From Telopea speciosissima (Eukaryota; Streptophyta; Magnoliopsida; Proteales; Proteaceae), in contig NC_057926.1 of NCBI RefSeq assembly GCF_018873765.1, positions 52,247,878 to 52,311,877 on the forward strand: a stretch of DNA of 64,000 nucleotides, given 5' to 3'. Below, piece after piece: positions 1,899 through 64,000 of this stretch (the first letter of the stretch is position 1; every line of letters begins with the position of its first letter). Both the position numbers and the translations under genes were made by a program. The notes beneath the pieces were generated by a model. The model was not told the origin of the DNA and made no database searches. It saw nothing but the letters and a program-made list of their open reading frames with translations.

Positions 1899-4800
1899 GT
1901 CCCTGCTATTGGCTACCAGTGGTTCTCTTCTTTTCCCCTGGATGACTATTTCTATGTGAAGCAAATAGCACCTTCACGAACCTTCTGCATTTATGAGGAG
2001 GTTTACTTCTAACTTTCCTCAATCTATAAGTGTATGTTTCATTTGTTTGTTGTTAGCAGGTCGGCATTGTGCAGTTAATGATGTGATGCAGTAGCTTGAT
2101 AGTTCATAAGAGTAAAAAATTGTGATATTTCAGCTTCCATTTGCTATATTTGTGCCTCGTTGGCCAATTGATATTTTTCTAGAGAATTTTAACATCTTTA
2201 TCTGCCCTCTCCCATGATTAACAGTCCCCTCCCTTCCCCCTTCCTAATAAGTAAAATAATTTCTTCAAGAAAAGAGAGAATCAAGGTAGTTAATTTCCAA
2301 AGTAGAAGGTTTTCGGGTTACTTTTTTGGCTGATGAATTGGCATCTTTCTTGTCATTTGGATGAACATGCTCATAAACATTTCTAAACTGCCATCTAGAC
2401 TAGAATATACACCTTGAGCTTTTTATACCTTGGTTTCCTTGGATCATAGGTGTCCTTTGTACAGTCTTTTTTGGATTGGATGGGAAATTTAGAATCAATA
2501 AAGACTCGTAGAAGTGAATGTAAAAAGCATTAAAAAATGTGTGAAATCAAACATGAAGAATTTATGCATTTACACTATCCCTGCAAGTTGAACAGTCAAT
2601 TATCGCAAAAACCACTGGTTTAGCCCTTTGGGCTCTTTCTAAATGGGTTTCCAATCAATAGGGTGCCCAGTTACTGCACTTTTTAAAAAATAAAGACAAG
2701 CAAAATCAAAGATTAAAAAATGGTCAATAAGGAACCGAGCTCGAAAGCAGCATACTATCTACCTTTCACTGGAAAAGACTTACAATTTAATCAGGAAAAC
2801 CTTCTAAATATTTCTTGAACAAATCCAGTAAAGGGTGTACCCAGTGCATGAGGCTCCCGCCACTGCGGGGTCTGGGAGGGTCATAATGTACGCAGCCTTA
2901 GCCCTGCTTTCGCAGAGAGGCTGTTTCCAGACTCTAATCCGTGACCACTTGGTCACAATGGAGCAACTTTACCATTACCTTACTTGAACAAATCCTGTAA
3001 TCCAGTTATTTACTGGAAATGAAATTTTAAAGCCCCAAACACTTCTAGCAAAATAATTACAATGAACAAATCGATGATTCACTTTCTTCAGCAATGAAAC
3101 TATGCTTGTTAAGGTGGTCAACTTTCTATCCTTTGTTATTGTCTATTTTCTTCTACATGATTTTTTTGGTTAAATTATTTTCTTTTAGCTTGTTCTGTTC
3201 ATTCAAATCTAAGGGATTTCTATTCATATATTTAACATTGTCCTTCAAGCCACATCTGTTGAAACTGAAGCTACATGAAAATTGCTTGTAGGTGGAGAAA
3301 TTACGCAAAGCTGGATTGATTCAAGGGGGTTCAGCAGACAATGCCCTTGTTTGTAGGTAACATGCTTCATCTATTTTATGCATTGCACTCAACAATTAAC
3401 CATCTGATTAAGATTACTCATTTGGATGGCAAGAGAAAGTATGGGAAAAGGTACAATACACTGGATGACATTGTGCAAGTCAGTCAATTGGTTTCTTTTG
3501 ATTTGCTACAAACTTTCAGTTATGATCAGCCCACAGGGTGGCTTAGTGGCAGCTCTATGTATTCATCTACAATTCAACACTCAAAAGAGAGGCATGAGGG
3601 ATTGAGGATGGGAGGTCTGTATGGGCTTGGTCTGCTTGTTATAACCTGTTTCTAGTGCGGGACAGAAATCGAAAACAGGATTGAAGGAGGTAGAAGAAGA
3701 AACCAGAGGGGGAGGGGAGAAATCACACAGAAGAAAGGAGAAGAAGGAGACGCAGCAAAAGAAGGGAGCGTTCAAGAAAGGGGGGGTGGGGGTGTGCACA
3801 CGCACAAACTCAATTTTCTTTTAATTCATTCTTGCATATCCTTATGATGGGGGGGGGGATTACATCTATTTATAAAACCCAAAAATAAAGACTATTAATT
3901 ACTTACTAAAACCAGACTAACTAAAATAGAAACCCCTAAAACTCAAATCGGAAATTTCCCTATATGTCTAATGACTACCTTAAAATAAAAGATTACATAA
4001 TAATTTCCCAAATAAAATAAACTTCCAAAAATCCTACTAGATCCAAACACTCAAACTGGACCCGGTTCAACTGGGTTTGGGTCGGTCCAATGTTGTACAC
4101 CAGTTGGGTTGGCCCGGTCCAAGATTGTCCTGCATCAACTCTCCCGATGTTGAGAAAAACTCGACCACGAGTTTAAAAAAAGGAGAGGATCAACACCACT
4201 CGATCAACATCCACGATCAACAACTTGGATGGGGTGAACGTACGAATGTAATCGTAAAGACAAGGGCGACACTCCTCAAAGTACTTCAAGGGATGACGAA
4301 TTCTACGTGCCCAACCTTAACGTCGTCGAATGTATCCATAGGGCCATATGTGTCGCCTTCCATTGTGTTTTTGACCTTCATAGTTTCAATCTTAAGCTCC
4401 TTAGGATCCTCTTGGCTGGTCACGATCATCACAGTTGTTAAAGGGCCAAGCCCCTTGGTCTCGACCTCATTGTCCACTAATGCGACCATATTGCTTTCGA
4501 CGTCTTCCACATCAGTGTCGGTAACAGGAACTTCGCGGGCTGGATCTTCCTTGAAGACAGAAATTACTGAAACTTCTTCATTCTCAATCAACGTTGCTTC
4601 AACGTCAGGCTCTTTAGGGACTGTCCTATTAGCAGGCAGCGCAGCCATTTGCATTTCATGGGTAACTGGAAGGTTTTTCAAGACCTCTCCAATCAAACGA
4701 TCCAACCGTTCAAGTCTCGAGAGCTCTTCAGCCTGTGTTGATTTGTTCGTGAAATCCCATGACCATTCAGTATTGTAGTTCAATTGTAACTCACTTAGGC

Positions 4801-7800
4801 ATGAAAATTGAATATTCAGTGTACATCATCATAAATATTACGACCTTGAAGAACATTCCTTGCTGAAACGGCACTCAGGAGTGACTGATACTGGACAAAA
4901 GCTTGACAAACAATAGCAGACTGATGAAAGATCTTGATCTTTTCAACAAATCCACGAGGAGAAAACACTTGATGCAACGCTTTCACAGTTATAGGATAGA
5001 GCAGCTGGTGGATTGTAACTAAAAGAATTCGGTTAGGTTGTGGTTTGGGGAACATTGATGGCACAATTGTAACTACAATGAAGTTTATAAGGGCGGTGGC
5101 AGAATTGTAATTATGGCAAGTGCAACAACTAACGCAAAAGGGAATGGAATCTCACGTATAAGGTGAAGGGCAAACTGGGAAGTGGGTGAATAAAAGGATA
5201 AAACATAATTAATAAAAGACTGAAGTGGGGTAATATGTGGAAATAGGTCTTAAATGAAGGGCAAATAATAGAATAAAGATAAATTAGAAGGGCAGTTTAG
5301 GAAATTGAAAAGAGAAAGACACAAAAGGGGACTTTTGAGTTTGTGTGGAAGGAGATGGGGTTGGAGTTTTCAACAGAATACCTTTTTCACTGTATCGCTA
5401 GTTAGGGTTTTGCGGGAAACAAAGGGGAAGGTGGGGTTGGTGCTGGATGTGAAGAGGGTGGCAATGAAATGGGCCGGGGAGATGGAGAGCTACCGTGAGT
5501 CGTAGTGCCAGGTTTGACTCTGATACCAGATAATGCGGGATAGAAGTCGAAAAGAGGATTGAAGGAGGTAGAAGAAGAAACCAGAGGGGGAGGGGAGAAA
5601 TCACACAGAAGAAAGGGGAAGAAGGAGACGCAACAGAAGAATGGAGCATCCAAGAAGGGGGGCTGTGCACACGCACAAACTCAATTTTCTTTTAATTCAT
5701 TCTTGCATTTCCTTATGATGGGGGGATTACATCTATTTATAAAACCCAAAAATAAAGACTATTAATTACTTACTAAAATCCGACTAACTAAAATAGAAAT
5801 CCCTAAAACTCAAATTGGAAATTTCCCTATATGTCTAATGACTACCTTAAAATTAAAGATTACATAATAATTTCCAAAATAAAATAAACTTCCTAAAATC
5901 CTACTAGTTCCAAACACTCAAATTGGACCCGGTTCAATTGGGTTTGGGTCGGCCCGGTTCGAGATTGTCCTGCATCAGTTTCTTTGTCTGTCTTTGAATG
6001 GTTAGTGGCTCTATATGTGTTTAAAAGAGAATGGGTTGCTTTAACATATTGTTCTGATCAGCAGCCAGTCAATAGAGTTTTCTTAAAATGGTCATAGTTG
6101 TTATAACTTACGGTGACTTTACTGGGCTAAAATATTCCTTTCGCTCTAAGGTCATTTTATTAAGAAAATAACTATTACTTGACTTTCCTCCTTTGGTAGC
6201 GTAACTTAGCCTAACTTCCTGGAAAATTGATGTCTTCCTCTTGGAGGAAAGAAGTGGATGTATAGAAAATCAAAAGGAATTGCCACACACTTTACAATGT
6301 CATTTGTCCCTAGATTGGTGGTTCTTTGAAGAATGACATCCTTACTGGTAAGGAAATAATCTCTCAAAGGCTTTTAAATCCATATGGATACACAACCATC
6401 TGAAGAGTTTCCAGGTACATGAATCAGCTTTATCTTCAAATATACAGTATATCTCTTTTTCCAAATGCTCCAACATTGTGCACAAGGATTTCAGAGAACC
6501 ATAAGTTTAAAGGATATGGCTCCTGTATGCCATCTGTGAAGATGTTTCAACAGTCTTTTTGTGTTCCACTGCATTCCAGATATGGTGTTTTTCCAAATAT
6601 GCTTTTCAGGAATAAATGATAAACAAGGAATCCACCACTATTCTTGCTCTTAAAATCAATTAGCTGATTTTGAGTATATCTGTGGTACTCCTTGCCACAA
6701 AAAGATTTTGTAAAGGATTGAAGTGCTCTAAATGAAGACAAGTAGAAATGGAATTCCCTAACAGGAACAAATGTATACATAAAGGAACTAACCAATAACT
6801 AATTCTTTTTTAGTTCACTTTAATTAAGAATGTCAACTCTTCCTAAGCCCTATTAATGTAGTCCTAGATAGGTAGGAGACCTACTAGAAGCCAAACAACT
6901 GGATCAAATAACAAAAGGGGCTGCTGGTTCGAATGGACAGCACTAGGATTTAGGTCAATTCCTGGGGTTTGGGTTGGATATTGGGAAAAGGGTTTATATG
7001 GTATTAATGGGCAGGTCTAGGGGGTCAATATGGTATAAAAAGGTTAGGGTTTGGATGAGTTTTGAAATTCTACAATTCTGGACAGAATTGAGTTGCAGGT
7101 TTTGGGCTTTAATGGAGTTTGGGTTTATGGGATTCAAACAAAAAATAAAGGGGATCAATTGGGGGAAAGGATTAGAGGATTAGAAGAAGAATTTTGGCGT
7201 CAAACTTACTGGAGATTCCACTGGCAGTAAGCTTCGACAGTTGTGAAGGATAAAGCCACCTTCGAATATGAAGAAGATCCTCCCAGCCGTCACGGCGTAA
7301 GGAGTCAACCGGATTCCGCCAGTCCCTTTCCCCCACCTTGATAGAACCACAAGGATGCACACTCATAAGGAGCACAGGAGCAACAACAATGGCAGCCAAC
7401 AAGCAAAAGCTTTTTTCATTAATCAAATTCGTGTACAATGCTGGCCTCCCTTACAAACTTATATAGAAGACTCAAAAATAGACTTAGACACTAAAAAGGA
7501 ATGACCTAATCCTATCCTTAACCTATTAGGTCATTTAAATTGACTAGGAAACTAAAATACTAAAGGAAATAGACTCAAAACATGGCTGGACTTATAGAGT
7601 CCTAATCCAGCCCAACTTACATCACATGACCACTTAACCAAGTCACATGATCATTTAAATTGAACCAATTGGATGCAACCAATTTGAACCGGTTCAATTA
7701 GAAAACATAAAAATAAACTAAGTATTGGGCTAATCTCGTATGCAACCTATGTACCCCTAGTTTAGGCTCATTAAAGTGGCCTAATACATAGAAAACCCTT

Positions 7801-10800
7801 GGGAACAAAGGCCCAACATGTATATAACCCAACCCTAGGCCTATTTCTAAAGAAATAAGCCAATATCTATGATGAACCTGCATCAACTCTCCCCAACTTG
7901 AAAAAATTCGTCCTCGAATTTTGCAGTGATGAGGGGGAATCAACATGTGATCAGCAACTTTGACCATCCCCAAACAAAATTCCGATTAGGCAGGAACATT
8001 GGGGATAAAGTCTTCAATGCATGGAGCTTTCTCTTCGAAGAACCATGGTGGCATAACAAACTCTATGTGTTCGCTTGTGAATCAGCGAAAGAATGTCAAT
8101 GTCTCATCCATAGAGCCTTCAGTGTTAGCAACCTTCTCATCTAATGCATGAGACACAAGCTCCACCTCTTCAAGAGCAGCATCTTGAAGGTCATTGTTTT
8201 CCTTTGGAATGCTCTCAATCAACTTTTCATCTTCTACTGGTTCAGCCTTATCTATATTGGTTTCTTCAACATAGATCACTTCAGTAGGATCTTCTGTTGG
8301 TGCATCTGCCATTGGTGAAACTTCAAACACAGTTGATGCCACTTGCGTTTGAGTTGACATGTTCGGCAGTCCCTGTGGCTGTACAGTCGATGTGGTCACC
8401 TTTGGTTGTAACCCTTTTAGAGTAAATAAATGGTATAGACGGTGTCGATCAGGTAGGACACACGAGCTGTATTCAGGTTCAATCCAACCTTGTCGCTCGT
8501 CTAACCAATCACCACCTACTGCAATAAAACTCTTTGAATGTGGTACCGGCTGACACCAAGCACCATCATGGTATGAAGAACACCCAAATTCAACAAAGAC
8601 TTTACCTGTAGGCATGATGCAAATCTCTCCTGATTGGGACCGCATATCCACCACGGATTGTGAAATAATGTTGTTACGTCGCCTCTCATCAACAATTAAT
8701 ATGGTTGTGCTCCCATTGGGTAGACGAACTCGGGTCTTAAAAACGAATGGAGGTGGGTCTTTCGAGGCTTGGTTGGAGCTTCCCTCCGCCATAGCTTTGA
8801 TACCAATTAATGTAGTCCTAGATAGGTAGGAGACCTACTAGGAGCCAAACAACCGGATCAAATAACAAAAGGGGCTGCTGGTTCGAATGGACAGCACTAG
8901 GATTTAGGTCAATTCCTAGGGTTTGGGTTGGATATTGGGAAAAGGGTTTATAGGGTATTAATGGGCAGGTCTAGGGGGTCAATATGGTATAAAAAGGTTA
9001 GGGTTTGGATGAGTTTTGAAATTCTGCAATTCTGGACAGAATTGAGTTGCAGGTTTTGGGCTTTAATGGAGTTTGGGTTTATGGGATTCAAACAAAAAAT
9101 AAAGGGGATCAATTGGGGGAAAGGATTAGAGGATTAGAAGAAGAATTTTGGCGTCAAACTTACTAGAGATTCCACTAGCAGCAAGCTTCGACAGTTGTGA
9201 AGGATAAAGCCACCTTCGAATTTGAAGAAGATCCTCCTAGCCGTCACGGCGTAAGGAGTCAACCGGATTCCACCAGTCCCTTTCCACCTTGATAGAACCG
9301 CAAGGATGCACACTCATAAGGAGCACAGGAACAACAACAATGGCAGCCAACAAGCAAAAGCTTTTTTCATTAATCAAATTCGTATACAATGCTGGCCTCC
9401 CTTACAAACTTATATAGAAGACTCAAAAATAGACTTAGACACTAAAAAGGAATGGTCTAATCCTATCCCTAACCTATTAAGTAATTTAAATTGACTAGGA
9501 AACTAAAATACTAAAGGAAATAGACTCAAAACATGGCTGGACTTATAGAGTCCTAATCCAGCCCAACTTACATCACATGACCACTTAACCAAGTCACATG
9601 ATCACTTAAATTGAACCAATTGGATGCAACCAATTTGAACCGGTTCAATTAGAAAACATAAAAATAAACTAAGTATTGGGTTAATCTCGTATGCAACCTA
9701 TGTACCCCTAGTTTAGGCTCATTAAAGTGGCCTAATACATAAAAAAACCCTTGGGAACAAAGGCCCAACATGTATATAACCCAACCCTAGGCCTATTTCT
9801 ATAGAAATAAGCCAATATCTATGATGGACCTGCATCACCTATTGCCAAAAAAATTCCATGTCTCAGTTGTTTCAGTTTTTCCCAAATCAACTGTACTGTA
9901 CTTTATTTGACCTCAAAAGTTCTGTTTGCCTTTCCATTGGCAGTTCCATATCAAATTATCTATGAAGAAGCAATCCAATTAGGATTCCTCCCCATTTGAT
10001 TGAATGAATGTATCATCCTCTCGTTGTGTTCTAAGTGTTTGTAGAGAAGTATACGAGTTCTCCCTGGATCAGCAAACTCATGTAATTAGGAGTTTTAAGA
10101 GATTCCTGTTCAGTTAGTCCCAATTTTTAATTACTTAAATTTGATTAGAGCTTCCATGCCTTCTGCAGTGCCAGCAAAGGTTGGTTGAATCCACCGTTGC
10201 GTTTCCAAGATGAACCTTGTCGCCATAAGGTTTTAGATCTTGTGGGGGATTTTTCTCTTCTTGCGCAGAATGGTAATCAAGGGCTTCCAGTTGCACATAT
10301 TGTTGCTTACAAGGTATTTTTCTTACCTTTGTTAACTGTCTTCCATATATTTGCCCCATAAATTCATTTTGCTTTTCTTTTCTGAAATAATTGATGAAAT
10401 CAAACCAAGATATAGCATCCAGCTCTCAAGAATTGTTTCCCTTGGCATTGACATTTCCTGTTTAATATTGTTTATGATGGAGGACAGGTGGTTGTCATGG
10501 TTTTTAACTCTTATTTAGGTTTTTCCCTTTATATCATAAATCAAACTGAGTTATTACAATTTTATTTGGATTTCTCTTACCCAGATGAGCTGTTAGGGTC
10601 GTTCTTATCTGAGATACTTCCTGTGTTTCTTTAGTAGACTATTTCGGGAGACATTTTGGACTTTCTTTACGGATGATATTTGAAGCCATAATGTTGAGGG
10701 CATCTATAATGGGGGAAAAATATCTTTGGAAATCATACTCTCTACAGAATGCATTAGGAAACTTTTGTGGTTAGGAAGGCTGGACATGATGATTACAAGC

Positions 10801-31357: not shown

Positions 31358-32332
31358 AGGGCCTGCATGATAACATTATATTTCTCTATTTCTTTGTTTT
31401 TTTGTTCCTATGAACAAAAAATAAGAGAAATCCATTTGTTGACACTGGTTCATTTTTTGGTTCTTGAAAATGAATTGGGACAAAAAAAAAATTGTTGAGA
31501 AATAGAAGGAAAAAAAGTTTCAATTTAAAGCTTCTATCTCCCAGAAATAAAAGGAAGAAACAAAGGAAGCTGGGTGGGTGGGGGGGGTGGGAGTTGCTCT
31601 TTAAAGAGAAATTTGATGGACAAAACAAGGGAGTTGCTCTTTAAAGAGAAATTTGATGGACAAAACAATAATTTCATGTTCAAATTAAAACACTACCTCC
31701 AATGCAACTTCAACCACCACCACCACCACCACCACCACCTCCATCTCCATCTCCACCTCCACCTCCACCTACACCACTACTGCCACCTCTATCACTACCA
31801 CCACCACCTCCACCACTGCCACCACCACCACCACCACCACCACCACCTCCACCACCGTCGCCACCACCTCCACTGCCACCACATCCACCACTACTACCAC
31901 CAATGCCACCATCGCCACGACCACCACCTTCACCACCACCACCACCACCACCACCTCCACCTCCACCTCCACCTCCACCTCCACCTCCACCTCTGCCACC
32001 GCCGCCACCTCCTTTGCCACTGCCACCACCACCAACACCGCCACCACGGCCACCATTGCCCCCACCACCAATATCGCCGCTACCACCACCACCAAAACCG
32101 CCACCACGTCCACCTTCACCAATTTTTTTGGTATTTAATGATATTTTTTAAGTTGTACAGAATTTCTAGAAACAGAAATGATTGTGCATAACAAACGTGT
32201 TTCTATTTCTTTTCTAACTACGAAATAGAAATTATTATGCGTTATCAAACGTATTTTTTTACCAAAAAATTTGACCTAGTAACAGAAATATAAAAAGTGG
32301 CCTAGAAATAGAAATGTTATCATACAATCCTT
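31358..32332. mobile_element. TIR element (hAT/MITE-like) with (CCA)n-rich interior
   Basis: The left end GGCCTGCATGATAACATT is mirrored at the right end by ATGTTATCATACAATCC, with matching subterminal TTTCTATTTC phrases. Related termini (AAGGCCTTGCATGATAACAC) recur at about 52,920 and 53,985 near the MLP copies. The interior contains a 40-bp tandem duplication (31,591-31,670) and a 400-bp trinucleotide-like array. No transposase frame; target duplication not determined. Confidence 0.6.
31703..32118. repeat. imperfect (CCA/CCT)n array
   Basis: About 415 bp built from CCA, CCT and occasional CCG/ACT triplets, with pure (CCA) runs such as 31,713-31,737 and 31,824-31,848. It reads open in three frames as His-rich, Pro-rich or (minus strand) Val-rich chains, which is expected of a triplet repeat and is not evidence of a protein. 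Confidence 0.9.
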
Positions 32333-34668: not shown

Positions 34669-35944
34669 GGTGAGGGAGATAATAACACTTAGAATCATCA
34701 TCTATAGTGTCAAGGATGTCCTATATTTATAAAGGAGACATGCCCACCGGAATACCTTACCAAAAGAGCTCAAAGGATGTGTCTCTCTAAGAGAGAAGAT
34801 ATTGAAAACTAGCCATTGCTGGTGTCTAATGCATTCTAGGTAGCGTGTAACACAATAGTACTAACGCTGATGATGCATTAGATGAAGTTCATATGATAGT
34901 AAAAAGAAATTTAGAAACAAGTCCGGTCCGACAGCCAACAAAAGGAGAATCCACACACATAAAAGGCATCGTCATGCCACGCCCCAATTCAACTTGTGGT
35001 ACACAAGCGAGTGTATGAAAAAAACCCCAAAAACCCAAGACAAAAGAGCATAAGTAGCCTTCCTTTAATGGAATTCTACCTTTTCAACATAAAAACCTAT
35101 TTCATTCTCTTCCATGATAACACTTTTGTTTCTTTGTTTTTTTGTTTATAAGAACATAAAAAAAATATATAGACATACGTTTGTTACCATCGGTTCATTT
35201 TTTTGTTCTTGGGAATGAACCACTTGAAAGAAACACAATGAAAGAAGCTTTAATTTAGAAATTCTCTTTTCCGAAAAACAAAAAGGAGAAATAAGGGGGG
35301 AAAACTACCGACACTACCACCACCACCTCCATTAATGAAACTTTAACTACTGCATCCAGGAGGAAATGATGATGGTAGGATGTGAGGGAAGGGATATGTC
35401 ATGAACTTTGTCCAATAGGGGGAATTTTGATTTATGCTTTTTAGTCGGTGGATGAGTTTAGACCATAGAAAAACTTTTGCCTTTTTAAAGACAATAATTT
35501 CAATAAAAATGTAGAAAATATTATGTACACACTAATGTTAATACACACCCTTTCACACACTCTCTGCTCCTTGATACTCTCTCTTGCACTGTCTCTCTCC
35601 TGCTTGACCATGGGGGTCCCTTGTGTAGGAATCGTGAGGCACTCCCACCCATGCACCTTTTGTTTAATTTGAAAGATGCCGACAACATGTAAATCTAAAA
35701 AATTTATTATAAAGGTTTAGTGACCACATTTTTATTATAATATTCCAACATCATTACAAAAGTACATAGATATAGAGGTAATTAAGAAAACAAACATTAC
35801 CATGACACACAAGCTTCTCAACTTAGGAAGAAACAGGTACTCATAAACAAGAAACATAATCTAGAATTGCAATTTTAGTTGCAATCGATCATAAGCAAAC
35901 TGTGATCACTAATAAGCCAAGCATTTGGGTTTAACTCCTTGCTT

Positions 35945-36574
35945 CTAAGCTTGAAGAAGATGCGCGTCCAACCCCTTACAGAACTTGGTTGTAACCTCCA
36001 GATAATTAATAGGCTCAGGGACCTTCTCACTTAGCTTTTCATATTCTATGATGCATTTCACAAAGTTCTTGCCATCCTTTGTAAAGACTTGCATATGCAG
36101 CTTGTACTTGCTGCAAAGCTCTCTAACATATTCAAAGTGATTGATTTGTTCACTTCATCTAGGGCTTCCATCTTGCCTTTGGTAGAGACAACTTTATCTC
36201 CATCTGTGTTTAACAAAATGTACCAAAAAAAAGTCTTTGACATTATGAACCACAATAAAAGAATCATTTTAAACACCCCAGGGTCAGCCCATCTAGTGGG
36301 AGTACTGTTGGCGTAGGCCACTCTCCCGGACAAAGTTCTTTTCCCATAGAATAAAAAAATTCCTTAAAGGGATAATGAAAATCTTACCTAAGACATAGCA
36401 GTAGGAATTGATGGAGCCCAAGCTCTTTCCATCTCCTTCATGTACTTCAGACTTATGGACATCATCAGGAAGAGCTTTGGAAAATAGGGTCCCATGATCT
36501 ATACAACCATGAAAATACTTATTTGCAGAGGATTTGATCTCCATTTCCATTGAAAGCTTTCCACTAAGACCCAT
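35945..36574 (-). pseudogene. MLP-like (Bet v 1 family) pseudogene, exons 36388-36574 and 35945-36203
   Basis: Exon 1 (62 codons plus one base) starts MGLSGKLSMEMEIKSSANKY and ends in a normal CTTAG|GTAAG donor; the intron ends AACACAG. Exon 2 is 259 bp, 13 bp shorter than its intact sister at 55,547. The missing bases lie after the NKSITLNM region, where the sister has an ACAT...ACAT direct repeat. The deletion shifts the frame and stops it early, so the C-terminal half of the ligand-binding fold is lost. The frame beyond the deletion still reads well when shifted, so inactivation is recent. A TATAAAT box (36,686-36,692) remains upstream. Confidence 0.88.
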
Positions 36575-36685
36575 TGCTCCTAACGATCAAAAGCGAATAT
36601 TGGAGAACACAGCTCAAACTCTTATCAAGGGTGAGAGATGGAAAAGAGAAAGAAGACTATGGAGTTGAGAATTGAGAATGCACGA

Positions 36686-52299: not shown

Positions 52300-53882
52300 T
52301 TCCCCTATGTCCATTCAAATACAATAATAGACATTGGGGAAGAAATTCCTCCATCACTATGTCTCTGTAAGAGAGAAGACACTGAAGACTAGCCATTGCT
52401 AGCATCCAATGCATTTTGGGTAGAGCGCAACGCAATAGTGTTGACGCTTTAACGATGCATTAGACGAAGTTCATATGAGTTGCCAACTAAAATAGAAACC
52501 ACACACATAAAAGGCCTCGTCATCCCACATCTTGGTTCAGCTTGGCGCACATGCACGCATGTGTGAATATCTAATTATAAAACTTATGTTTCTGTGTTAT
52601 TTTTAATATCTAAGAACTAAAAATAAATAAATAAAAATAAAAATATGTTTATTACCATCGGTTCATGTTTTTGTTCTTGGGAATGAACCATTTGTTGAGA
52701 AACACTAAAAATTGCTGAGAAACACAAAAAGAGAAGCTTCAACTACCTCATCTAGGAGGTCATGATGATGGTAGGAAGAGAGGGGACGGATAAACCTACT
52801 GAGACCCCGGGAAAGAAGACAAAGACAGATGCCTTCTTTTAATGGGAATTCAATCCTTGTAGTTCCCATTTCAATATAAAAACCTACTTCATTCTGTTCC
52901 ATTTCCAATGTGGGATTAAGGCCTTGCATGATGACACTTTTGTTTCTGTGTGTTTTTTGTTTGTAAAAACGAAAAAAAGAATAGAAATAAGTTTGTTATC
53001 ATCGGTTCAGTTCATTTTTTTGTTCTTAGGAATGAACCATTTGAAAGAAACACAAAAAAAGAACTTTAATTTGGAAATTATCTTTTCTGAACAATAAAAG
53101 ACAGAAATAAGGGGAGGGGAAGGGGGGGGGGGGGGGAACTACCGACACTACCACAACCACCTCTATTAATGCAACTATAAGTACCTCATCCAGGAAGTAA
53201 TGATGTCAGTAGGATGTGAGGGGAGGGATATGTCAAGAACTTTCAACTTTGTCCAATAGGGGGAGTTTTGATTAATGCTTTTTAGTCTGTGGATGAGTCT
53301 AGATCATAGAAGAACTTTTACCATTTTAAAGACAATAATCTCAACAAAAATGTAGAAAATATTATGTACACACTACGTACTGTTAATACACACCCTCTCA
53401 CACACTCTCTCCTCCTTGATACGTTCTTGCACTGTCTCTCTCCTGCTTGACCATGTGGGCTCCTTGTATATGAATCGTGAGGCATTCCCACCCATGCACC
53501 TATTGTTTGGTTTGAAAGATGCCGATAACATGTAAATCTAAAAAATTTATTACAAAGGTTTAGTGACCACATTTTTATTATAATATTCTAAAATCATTAC
53601 AAAAGTACATAGATATAGAGGTAAGAAAACATACATTACCATGACAAACAAACTTCTCAACTTAGGAAGAAACAGGTACTCATAAACAAGAAACATAATC
53701 TAGAATTGCAATTTTAGTTGCAATCATAAGCAAACTGTGATAACTAATAAGCCATGTGTCAAGGTTTAACTCCTTGGTTCTAAGCTTGAAGAAGATGCAC
53801 GCCCAACCCCTTGAAAAACCTGGTTGTAAGCTCCAGATAGTTAATCGGCTCAGGGACCTCCTCACTTAAAACCGCCCAAGGC
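52300..53882 (-). repeat. MLP duplication unit 2a, incomplete
   Basis: Repeats the downstream flank of the MLP unit (ACTAGCCATTGCTAGCATCC near 52,390, then AAAATATTATGTACAC at 53,354) and runs into exon 2. It then breaks at about 53,869, where a new unit starts (AAGGCAAAAGAGCATAAGG). A G-run at 53,124-53,137 is low-complexity. Confidence 0.75.
53780..53868 (-). pseudogene. 3' fragment of an MLP exon 2
   Basis: The stop codon (53,780-53,782) and about 29 codons before it match the end of the intact MLP at 55,547 (GCTTGAAGAAGATGC, then CAGGGACC). The rest of the gene is missing: similarity ends abruptly at about 53,868 in sequence belonging to the flank of the next unit. It looks like an unequal-crossover or deletion scar. 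Confidence 0.82.
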
Positions 53883-54372
53883 AAAAGAGCATAAGGAGCC
53901 TTCCTTTAATGGAATTCTACCCTTGTAGTTCCCATTTCAATATAACACCTACTTCATTCTCTTCCATTTCTAAAGTGGGACTAAGGCCTTGCATGATAAC
54001 ACTTTTGTTTATAAGAACAAAAAAAGAATAGAAATACGTTTGTTACCACCAATTCATTTTTTTTTATTCCTGAGAATGAACCACTTGAAAGAAACAAAAA
54101 AAAAGAAGCTTTAATTTGGAAATTGTCTTTTCCAAAAAACAAAAAGGAGAAATAAGGGGGGAAAACTACCGACACTACCACAACCACCTCTATTATTGCA
54201 ACTATAAGTATCCCATCCAGGAGGTAATGATGTCGGTAGGATGTGAGGGGAGGGATATGTCAAGAACTTCGTCAAATAGGGGGAGTTTTGATTAATGCTT
54301 TTTAGTCTGTGAATGAGTCTAGATCATAGAAAAACTTTTACCATTTTAAAGACAATAATCTAAACAAAAATG

Positions 54373-55110
54373 TTTTTTTTTTTTTACAAAGATAATTTAT
54401 TAACGATGGAACAAAGTTCCAGAAGAGTTAGAGAACAACTGAAGTAAAATACAATAAGGGGGAATCAAATTGAAATAAATCCTGTTGAGCCGAAGCAGCA
54501 AGAGAAGCAAGGCCGTCGGCCACTGAATTGGCCTCCCTGAGAGTGTGTTTGAAAATGATGTCTGCAAACAAAGAACTAAGCTGTCGACAATCCTCGGTAA
54601 TAGTAGTAATTCTCCACGGGGGCATTTTCATGCCATCTTTGAGAAGATCGACAACCAAAAGATTATCGCTCTCGATAATCAAATAATTATAGCCTTGAGA
54701 AATTGCAATCACCATAGCACGCCGAACTGCCATCGCTTCCGCAACCAGAGCAAAATTCCATCCAATTCCTTGAGCGAAACAACATAAGAAAGCTGCATTG
54801 GAAGTTCTGCAAACACCGCCTATGCCTGCACTGCCCGGATTACCATGACTAGCCCCATCAATGTTGAATTTAACATATGGATCTGGAGGAGCGAACCATT
54901 TGACTGTTCTCACAGCCGGGCAAGGTGAACGATAGCAAGCTTGAACCTGTTCCGGTCCCTGGCATTTGAGATAGCTCTAAGAGAGATGATATTCGGATTG
55001 AAAGGAGTTTGTCTGAAGATGAGGTCCCAATAACCATTCCAAATGAACCAAAGAGTGCTGCAGAAAAGGGCAGCCTTGAATCTGTTTACCTTGCTGTGAA
55101 GGCTAGAAAT
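54373..55110 (-). mobile_element. 5'-truncated LINE with poly-A tail and 15-bp TSD
   Basis: The plus strand shows T13 at 54,373-54,385 (the poly-A tail of a minus-strand copy). ATCTAAACAAAAATG (54,358-54,372) and ATCTCAACAAAAATG (55,111-55,125) are the target duplication with one mismatch. Other copies of the MLP flank have the uninterrupted site. This is a textbook target-primed insertion. Confidence 0.93.
54428..54913 (-). pseudogene. LINE ORF2 C-terminus, RNase H-like domain
   Basis: The minus-strand frame has VKFNIDGASHGNPGSAG, then LVAEAMAVRRAMVIA, then IIESDNLLVVDLL and LREANSVADGLASLA. These are the D, E, D and D positions of the RNase H-like domain at the end of plant LINE ORF2. Upstream, ALFCSTLWFIWNGYW and RAISNARDRNRFKL belong to the preceding region but lie in another frame, so the copy is broken as well as truncated. 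This domain is fully open and could be mistaken for a host gene. Confidence 0.9.
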
Positions 55111-55314
55111 ATCTCAACAAAAATGTAGAAAATATTATGTACACACTACTGTTAATACACACCCTCTCACACACTCTCTCCTCCTCGATACTTTCTTGCA
55201 CTGTCTCTCTCCTGCTTGACCGTGTGGGTCCCTTGTATATGAATCGTGAGGCACTCCCACCCATGCACCTATTATTTGGTTTGAAAGATGCCGACCACAT
55301 GTAAATCTAAAAAA

Positions 55315-55320
55315 TTTATT
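55315..55320 (-). terminator. probable polyadenylation signal of the intact MLP gene
   Basis: AATAAA on the minus strand about 230 bp after the stop codon. The same block is preserved in the other MLP units. Confidence 0.45.
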
Positions 55321-55546
55321 ACAAAGGTTTAGTGACCACATTTTTATTATAATATTCTAAAATCATTACAAAAGTACATAGATATAGAGGTAAGAAAACA
55401 TACATTACCATGACACAAACTTCTCAACTTAGGAAGAAACAAGTACTCATAAACAAGAAACATAATCTAGAATTGCAATTTTAGTTGCAATCATAAGCAA
55501 ACTGTGATCACTAATAAGCCAAGCATTAGGGTTTAACACCTTGCTT

Positions 55547-56120
55547 CTAAGCTTGAAGAAGATGCGCGTCCAACCCCTTACAGAACTTGGTTGTAACCTC
55601 CAGATAGTTAATAGGCTCAGGGACCTGTTCACTTAGCTTTTCATATTCTATGATGCATTTCACAAAGTTCTTGCCATCCTTTGTAAAGACTTGCACATGC
55701 AGCTTGTACTTGCTGTAAAGCTCTCTAACATGTCCTTCAAACATGTTCAAAGTGATTGATTTGTTCACTTCATCTAGGGCTTCCATCTTGCCTTTGGTAG
55801 AGACAACTTTATCCCCATCTGTGTTTAACAAAATACAGCAAAAAAATTTCTCATAAAAGATAAAAAAAAAAAAAATCAAATTGAATAAATAGAATAAAAA
55901 ATTCCTTAAAGAGGGTTATTAATTAAATCTTACCTAAGACATAGCAGTAGGAATTGATGGAGCCCAAGCTCTTTCCATCTCCTTCATGTACTTCAGACTT
56001 ATGGACATCATCAGGAATAGCTTTCGAAAATAGGGCTCCATGATCTATCCAACCATGAAAATACTTATTTGCAGAGGATTTGATCTCCATTTCCACTGAA
56101 AGCTTTCCACTAAGACCCAT
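55547..56120 (-). CDS. MLP-like protein (Bet v 1 superfamily), intact; exons 55934-56120 and 55547-55818
   Basis: Exon 1 encodes MGLSGKLSVEMEIKSSANKY, then FSKAIPDDVHKSEVHEGDGK and SLGSINSYCYVL. Exon 2 continues DGDKVVSTKGKMEALDEVNK and ends KFCKGLDAHLLQA. The joined frame is 152 codons, the usual size for major-latex-protein-like proteins, with the glycine-rich GDGKSLGS loop of the Bet v 1 fold in place. The single intron (115 bp) follows codon 62 plus one base, as in the family, with donor G|GTAAG and acceptor CACAG. MLP proteins bind hydrophobic ligands in a large cavity and are linked to stress and defence responses; the ligand here is unknown. A TATAAAT box is 98 bp upstream, and a MITE has inserted about 40 bp beyond it. 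Its sister at 35,945 is broken. Confidence 0.93.
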
Positions 56121-56217
56121 TGCTCCTAATATTCTTCAAAAGCAAATATTGGAGGGTGGGAGATGGGAGATGGAAAAGGGAAAGAAGGTTGTGAAGTTTA
56201 GAATTGAGAATGCATGG

Positions 56218-62434: not shown

Positions 62435-63060
62435 ACGTTTTTTTTTCTTTGTAAGGGTAATTTTGTCCATTTACCTCTTATTTTTTTTGGATTCTTCTTA
62501 GAAGGGCAATTCCGTTAGTTCAAGTCTAATTTTTAACAGTGTTAGTCATGAATTAACGGAATGGGCTTATGTGTTATCGTTTGCAAACCTCAGGGGGTAC
62601 GCAGAATTTTCCAAACCTGGGGAATAAAAATATCCTTTCGTCAAACCTCAGGGGGTATGTATAAATTTCCCTTAATTCAATTAGTCTTTTCTTATTGCCT
62701 TAATTATATCAAAGGTCTTAAGTGGATAATCCTCCTCATCTGATGGTAAAAAAATTGTTTGCGTGGAAAATGCATAAACACACAAGAGGAGATAGTGAGA
62801 GGGAGAAAATGACCCTTAATCATCATCTAAATCGTCAAGGACGTCATATATATTTGTATAGGACAAATGCCCATTGGAAACACCTTTTCAAAAGAATCCA
62901 AAGGATGTGTCTCTCTAAGATAGAAGACACTGAAGACTAGCCATTGCCAGCATCCAATGCATTATGGGCAGAGTGCAACACAATATTGTTGATGCCAGCG
63001 ATGCATTAGATGAAGTTCATATGAGTTGTCAATTAAAAAAAAAACCACACACATAACAGG

Positions 63061-63076
63061 CCCCCCCCCCCCCCCC
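63061..63076. repeat. C16 homopolymer
   Basis: A run of 16 C in the unit-3 flank. The equivalent place in unit 1 has ordinary sequence (GGCATCGTCATGCC), so the run may be a local sequencing error. Confidence 0.7.
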
Positions 63077-63583
63077 AAAGACAAGAGAACGAGCATATAG
63101 TGAGCCTTCAATGGAACCCTACCGTTCTAGTTCCCGTTTCAATATATAAACCTCATTTCATTTTTTTTTCCATTTCCAATCTGGGATTAAGGATAACATA
63201 AACATGATAACACTTATGTATCTATGTTTTTTTATTTCTTAGAACAAAAAAAGAAAGAATAGAAATACGTTTGTTACCTTCGTTTCATTTTTTATGTTCC
63301 TAGGAATGAACCACTTGCTGAGAAACACAAAAAGAGAAGCTTTATTTTGAAATTTCTCTTTTTCAAAAAAATTAATTAGAGGAAAAAATAAGGATAAAAA
63401 ACTATCAACATTGCCACCATCTCTAATGCAACTTCAACTATCGCATCTAGAAAGTAATGATGACGGTAGGAAGAGAGGGGACGAATATGTCAAGGACTTT
63501 ATCCATAAGGGGAGTTTTGATTAATCCTTTTTAGTCAGTGGATGAGTAGATCATAGAAATTTTTTTGCCTTTTTAAAGACAAT

Positions 63584-63791
63584 ACTCTCAACAAAAAGTT
63601 AGAAAATATTATGTACACTCTCTCCTCACTAATACCCACTTGCATTTTCTCTCTCCTCTTTGATCATGTGGGCCCTTTGTATTCAATACTCTCAACAAAA
63701 AGTTAGAAAATATTATGTACACTCTCTCCTCACTAATACCCACTTGCATTCTCTCTCTCCTCTTTGATCATGTGGGCCCTTTGTATATGAA
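63584..63791. repeat. 105-bp tandem duplication in unit 3
   Basis: CTCTCAACAAAAAGTTAGAA to GTGGGCCCTTTGTAT occurs twice in tandem (starting about 63,584 and 63,688). The other units have it once. Confidence 0.85.
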
Positions 63792-64000
63792 TTGTGAGAC
63801 ACTCCCACCCATGCACCTATTGTTTTGCAAATCTAAAAAATTTATTACAAAGGTTTAGTGACCACATTTTTATTATAATATTCTAAAATCATTACAAAAG
63901 TACATAGATATAGAGGTAAGAAAACAGACATTACCATGACATACAAACTTCTCAACTTAAGGAAGAAACAGATACTCATAAACAAGAAACATAATCTAGA

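Follow-up and report, generated by a model that had tools for sequence, protein, structure and literature searches.

The stretch of DNA analysed here, called the window, comprises 64,000 nucleotides of the Telopea speciosissima genome (contig NC_057926.1, positions 52,247,878 to 52,311,877), and coordinates refer to it unless another contig is named. It contains a long terminal repeat (LTR) retrotransposon of 2,325 bp (3653-5977, minus strand), which carries an intronless fragment derived from a gene for a polypyrimidine tract-binding protein (PTB). The fragment encodes an RNA recognition motif (RRM) of the RRM2 type. An LpxC-like plant gene surrounds the element, which is inserted into one of its introns in antisense orientation; one exon (10170-10313) has a Pfam LpxC match of 2.6e-11, and a further exon (3292-3353) was recognized by eye.

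Structure of the window element

The borders of the element are formed by a 5′ LTR of 447 bp (5531-5977, minus strand) and a 3′ LTR of 485 bp (3653-4137, minus strand). The sense 3′ end of the 3′ LTR is a polypyrimidine tract. Perfect copies of the target site duplication (TSD) GTTTC were read from the sequence at 3648-3652 and 5978-5982. The primer binding site (PBS) TGGTATCAGAGTC, which we take to be of the initiator-tRNA-Met type, lies beside the 5′ LTR (5516-5528, minus strand), and many further members of the family have a similar site downstream of their 5′ LTR. A purine-rich polypurine tract (PPT; 4138-4147, minus strand) adjoins the 3′ LTR and occupies the same position in a GAG-bearing relative. 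Two LTRs, a 5-bp TSD, a PBS and a PPT define the element as an LTR retrotransposon. It has no autonomous Ty3/gypsy or Ty1/copia gag-pol with reverse transcriptase and integrase: the two internal open reading frames (ORFs) scanned match RRM families or nothing. The LTR pair has a K80 divergence of 0.058, compared with 0.015-0.073 in 14 other copies, which places the window copy among the older ones.

The internal region starts with a 5′ leader (5035-5515, minus strand), which is 66% pyrimidine, PBS counted in, and in which no conserved ORF was seen by eye. Leaders are about 0.9-1.3 kb long in the other copies measured; inspection of 12 of these by eye, with no Pfam scan of the leaders, revealed no shared long ORF. 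The leader is followed by the captured RRM2 fragment (4735-5034, minus strand), the reading frame of which is broken, with a stop at 4816-4818, and by the acidic C-terminal tail of a chimeric ORF (4286-4734, minus strand; open frame 4286-4825). No Pfam match was found in the tail.

Identity and origin of the RRM fragment

The ORF at 5151-4816 (minus strand) matched Pfam RRM_8 with an E value of 2.9e-12 and RRM_1 with 2.8e-5. Its best matches among solved structures were hnRNP L-like (4.3e-10) and PTBP1 (2.3e-8). The RRM stretch measures 300 nt in the window copy and 304 nt in those copies that resemble it most (L041-L043). This copy is thus frameshifted and its RRM is cut short, and because of the frameshift the remainder of RRM2, which lies in another frame, gave only a weak PTBP1 match (E 0.036). 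Profile, structure matches and identity to host exons all identify the domain as a PTB-type RRM2. One RRM was found in the element ORFs scanned, not the three or four per protein that are typical of the PTB family.

Scanning the 823-Mb source genome with the RRM_8 profile yielded 83 matches from 84 scored candidates, four of which belong to two host paralogs, on contigs C7 (L069) and C1 (L070). The reading covered about 1 kb per gene. In the C7 gene four introns divide the captured stretch; in the C1 gene introns 1-3 were seen, the stretch read stopping past the fourth splice donor. The element copies have the host exons joined exactly and all introns gone, therefore the source was a spliced mRNA. 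DNA identity to the host exons was 75-90% for the three element RRMs compared. Since two intron-bearing host genes match the RRM stretch exon by exon, chance can be excluded as the source of the PTB likeness. Judged from the RRM2 in the parts read, the two loci are probably whole PTB genes, presumably similar to Arabidopsis PTB3. In copies with a second type of tail the similarity reaches further into the host linker (PSEQKDR vs PSEQKGR in the host).

A dispersed family

Other copies were sought in three ways. In a first DNA search, in which 40 of 1308 candidates were scored, many of the scored candidates were copies; a protein search gave 80 matches from 87 candidates, all scored. In the RRM_8 scan, removal of the host rows and joining of likely fragments of one copy left about 72-74 non-host places. 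A few places of the protein search, such as L048, were absent from the RRM_8 scan. L048 also accounts for C9:28404528, which had been considered as a host exon and was rejected: it belongs to this copy of the element, the RRM of which is interrupted by an insertion. One of the 72-74 places, C4:29748987-29749184, has a weak RRM_8 match (22.0 bits) and a 273-aa open frame; it was missed by the search with the element RRM and is possibly another host RRM gene.

The family places are spread over many contigs, as dispersed insertions. A flanking pair of direct repeats was found in 31 of the 35 RRM copies tested; in one of them (L011b) the pair consists of ORF-tail sequence, which leaves 30 of 35 with LTR-like repeats. 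Eleven of the 35 have a perfect 5-bp TSD of their own at the computed borders. No relatives outside the source genome were confirmed in viral contigs, prokaryote genomes or phage records.

For comparison we used 56 copies in which the RRM region is almost complete (36 including the window copy, and 20 added later). We left out L019, L028, L032 and L034, whose RRM has an insertion or a large gap, and L036, which had no RRM match. The RRM is open over at least 100 codons in 30 of the 56 (17/36 and 13/20). In six natural ORFs of 279-356 aa the match to the 89-position RRM_8 profile starts at positions 9-11 and ends at 85-86. The acidic tail follows the RRM in frame in many copies, which are independent insertions.

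The original prediction, made from the window alone, had described an LTR element at 3653-5977 with a 5-bp TSD, enclosing an intronless PTB-type RRM segment. The GTTTC repeats on both sides, the PBS and the PPT confirm the element, and RRM_8, the PTBP1 and hnRNP L-like structures and the host genes confirm the segment. Transduction of a host gene, which it had also proposed, is supported, with the missing introns showing the spliced-mRNA origin. The search it had suggested for further LTR-flanked copies sharing the fragment has uncovered a family. Neither of the findings that would have spoken against it, a best match other than PTB or a fragment private to this copy with its own insertion borders, was made: the match is PTB-like, other LTR-flanked copies carry the fragment, and separate borders were not seen by eye.

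Exchange of modules between copies

Module identities were calculated from the 28 pairs of eight copies. Between copies the LTRs are 63-87%, the RRMs 81-97% and the tails 84-94% alike, and leaders align over 13-70% of their length. Averaged over pairs of copies, the RRM differs by 0.118, 0.105 and 0.143 at first, second and third codon positions, and the tail by 0.135, 0.109 and 0.126, all below the LTR differences of most pairs. Two RRM types and two tail types were distinguished by eye, and each of these RRM types is found joined to each of the tail types (L041, L052, L020 and L065). Such reassortment fits template switching between co-packaged RNAs, a process that would explain the capture of the PTB segment too.

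The acidic tail and a GAG-bearing relative

The tail was searched against the genome, with 150 of 179 candidates scored. Among these the RRM copies matched strongly and ten other places weakly, with 31-46% identity. Two of the ten, L071 and L072, were read. The ORF of L072 begins with a Retrotrans_gag domain (9e-9; 35.9 bits vs a cut-off of 24.1), which is followed by the tail. Its tail scored 41.2 bits with that of L041 and 25.8 bits with that of L020, the maximum of 60 shuffles being 21.2 bits. About 150 bases past the tail ORF of L072 there is a PPT and then an LTR beginning with TGATGTAGGACAA, which leaves no room for pol; the corresponding LTR start in the window element is TGATGCAGGACAA. 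The PPT/LTR junctions of L072 and the window element are 74% alike over 66 bases (39.7 bits).

An ORF followed by PPT and LTR without an intervening pol, as in TR-GAG elements, is thus present both in the window element and in L072/L073. The GAG domain that TR-GAG elements have in their single ORF was absent from the family, no gag match being found in the six natural RRM ORFs. The RRM occupies the position that GAG has in the relative L072. The GAG-tail and RRM-tail elements both lack pol and have their 3′ ends in common. The simplest history is replacement of GAG by a PTB RRM2 in a pol-less GAG-tail element.

Some observations weigh against such a replacement. The second tail type (L052) had no detectable similarity to L072 (15.8 bits). 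The gag-like stretch of L071 fell just below the Pfam cut-off (23.0 vs 24.1 bits), and the tail match of L071 (E 2.1e-4) crosses a stop that lies early in the shared tail, with only 15.4 bits for the part compared. The replacement is deduced mainly from one relative that was read up to the LTR start, L072/L073.

A second LTR element lies in the same LpxC intron (6854-9837, minus strand; TSD CCTAT), with LTRs of about 1 kb that are 97-98% alike over the stretches compared. Its ORF at 8082-8834 (250 aa) has no Pfam match over the cut-off. The frame beyond this ORF shares the end of the tail (36.2 bits vs a shuffled maximum of 22.7), and the element joins the tail end to yet another N-terminal part. 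Direct BLASTP of the window tail against the 250-aa ORF found nothing.

CU-rich element RNA

The last 189 nt at the sense 3′ end of the window 3′ LTR are 70% pyrimidine, and the sense 3′ end of the 5′ LTR is 79% pyrimidine. In ten of 12 other copies the last 150 nt of the LTR are 75-81% pyrimidine, the fractions in the remaining two being 0.61 and 0.65. CU motifs, counted in 11 copies, have a density of 46.6 per kb in leaders (31.3-60.7) and 59.8 per kb in LTRs, and of 17.0 per kb downstream of the RRM. The values for comparison were 21.7 per kb in genomic flanks (sd 12.3, maximum 53.6; 44 readings), 24.3 in the LTR of a neighbouring RRM-less element and 27.4 in shuffled leaders. The genomic flanks served as baseline, as 1-kb intervals of the window were unusable for this purpose, some being pure pyrimidine.

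PTB proteins bind CU motifs via their RRMs (PMC5803842). The CU enrichment and this preference together make it plausible that the RRM binds the RNA of the element itself, as the original prediction had suggested for a pyrimidine-rich element RNA. The enrichment in leader and LTR is only consistent with such binding, and the RRM of the window copy is truncated.

The 1-kb intervals that are pure pyrimidine on one strand lie past 10 kb. The remainder of the window also contains an array of 9-15-nt units (31635-32147; 31 overlapping register matches) and long multi-copy direct repeats (34780-36583, 52360-56129 and 62908-63959), which are 60-98% alike and spaced about 17.8 kb and 1-2 kb apart.

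Possible role of the RRM

We consider it fairly probable that the window element is a dead copy of a non-autonomous LTR family, mobilized in trans, whose chimeric ORF joins RRM2 to the acidic tail and whose RRM has been kept for the element's own RNA. The capture would have occurred inside a particle, by template switching onto a spliced PTB mRNA. In the single ORF RRM2 forms the N-terminal half, in the position of the relative's GAG, and the TR-GAG-like acidic tail the C-terminal half; an autonomous relative would mobilize the element in trans. The RRM-tail protein may bind its own RNA at the U5 and leader, both CU-rich, aiding stability or packaging, and for this reason its RRM reading frame would be loosely kept. 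We are distinctly more hesitant about the idea that GAG was exchanged for a host RRM serving as the RNA-selecting protein of a CU-rich transcript, with capsids and enzymes coming from the autonomous relative; as a specific scenario it is rather doubtful.

The RRM could instead be a passive passenger, a PTB piece that was captured once and has been hitch-hiking since; the open frames would be residual, and ratios of nonsynonymous to synonymous substitution rates (omega) below 1 would arise from the choice of open copies. We regard this as a real possibility, though not the favoured one. The two explanations were weighed by analysing selection, as the original prediction had proposed. In 17 open copies a one-ratio model gave an omega of 0.66 for the RRM (p 0.013). 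The branch test covered 90 codons of 30 open copies and of the two host sequences. On the internal branches of the element tree omega was 0.58 (p 0.022), a value that speaks against a passenger, as none of 81 neutral simulations with internal omega set to 1 was as low, and one of 81 attained the observed likelihood ratio. For the two host branches and the host-element stem taken together, omega was 0.26 (p 0.0006). The same direction is indicated by the in-frame fusion of RRM and tail in independent insertions, and by the four RRM types distinguished by eye: open copies occur in every type, and open types differ in length by whole codons, a regularity conditional on choosing open copies.

Other results weigh against retention of the RRM, and several of them are as a passenger would predict. 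The bootstrap interval of the internal omega, 0.36-1.05 (60 replicates), reaches beyond 1. Terminal branches had an omega of 0.65 (p 0.006 vs 1), not different from that of internal branches (p 0.72), although inserted copies should drift. The omega values may have been lowered by the choice of open copies or by mutation bias. When changes were counted in 32 copies, some of them broken, the ratio of nonsynonymous to synonymous changes in the RRM was 0.68 of expectation for shared and 0.92 for singleton changes, without significance (Fisher p 0.37), and the wrong frames gave shared values of 0.83 and 1.03. LTRs and leaders diverge far more than third codon positions, and given the exchange of modules the conservation of the ORF is partly due to exchange, as much as to constraint. 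In 26 of the 56 copies the frame falls short of 100 open codons from the RRM start. The tail, with an omega of 0.93 (p 0.66; 11 copies), was indistinct from 1, as a passenger would be; in the 32-copy count it gave 0.89 for shared and 1.26 for singleton changes (p 0.13), and the last stretch 0.82 and 1.71 (p 0.09). Because omega is also low on terminal branches, weak purifying selection on the RRM is suggested, not proven. Of the proposed selection check, the internal omega stands in favour of a retained RRM, and the all-copy count does not show selection.

Use of the RRM against the host, in which a truncated PTB-like protein would compete with host PTB or alter the splicing of element RNA, is improbable. 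A single RRM is kept in the ORFs scanned and PTB proteins bind CU motifs via their RRMs (PMC5803842), but the CU enrichment of the element fits binding in cis equally well. Separate insertion of a PTB processed pseudogene into an LTR element agrees with the intronless copy and is hardly credible in view of the partial copy, a poly-A tract or own TSD not being seen by eye, and the in-frame fusion to the tail in many copies; presence of the RRM in all compared copies is no evidence against it, since copies were chosen by their RRM.

Comparison with known systems

The capture itself is confirmed and unusually well documented; its function for the element is what we infer. Plant LTR elements are known to capture host genes, and the captured pieces have mostly been treated as passengers or as material from which host genes may arise. 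Judged by titles and the openings of abstracts, the papers found on retrotransposon capture, RRMs, PTB and TR-GAG elements included no LTR element with a captured PTB or RRM. The present family has an RNA-binding domain in the position of a relative's GAG, at about 70 places, in several diverged types and with many open frames. One genome holds the donor gene together with several captured types and a relative that carries GAG, and the family offers a clean test case for whether a non-autonomous element can replace its packaging domain by a host RNA-binding domain.

The ORF1 proteins of LINEs contain RRMs and are thought to bind their own RNA. They resemble the present family in having a retroelement-encoded RRM with this presumed role; they differ in that LINEs are non-LTR elements and their RRM is no recent capture from PTB.

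TR-GAG elements are named and briefly described in PMC8704663. They are like the present family in having LTRs, PBS, PPT and a single conserved ORF, and in lacking pol; in addition, a relative that carries GAG has the acidic tail and the 3′ end in common with the family. The difference is that the GAG domain is absent here and a host PTB-type RRM2 is found instead.

In the Turmoil-1 element of Caenorhabditis elegans an RRM was transduplicated from rsp-2 (PMC2572040). Both cases are transposable elements with a captured host RRM, but Turmoil-1 is an element of another kind and has the RRM in its inverted terminal repeats, whereas the RRM described here is in the ORF of an LTR element. Bs1 of maize is an LTR element into which host gene segments were transduced (PMC13317346, PMC7264820). 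Bs1 shares with the present family a hybrid ORF made from host gene segments; unlike Bs1, the Telopea family carries an RNA-binding domain and occupies about 70 places in one genome, in several diverged types.

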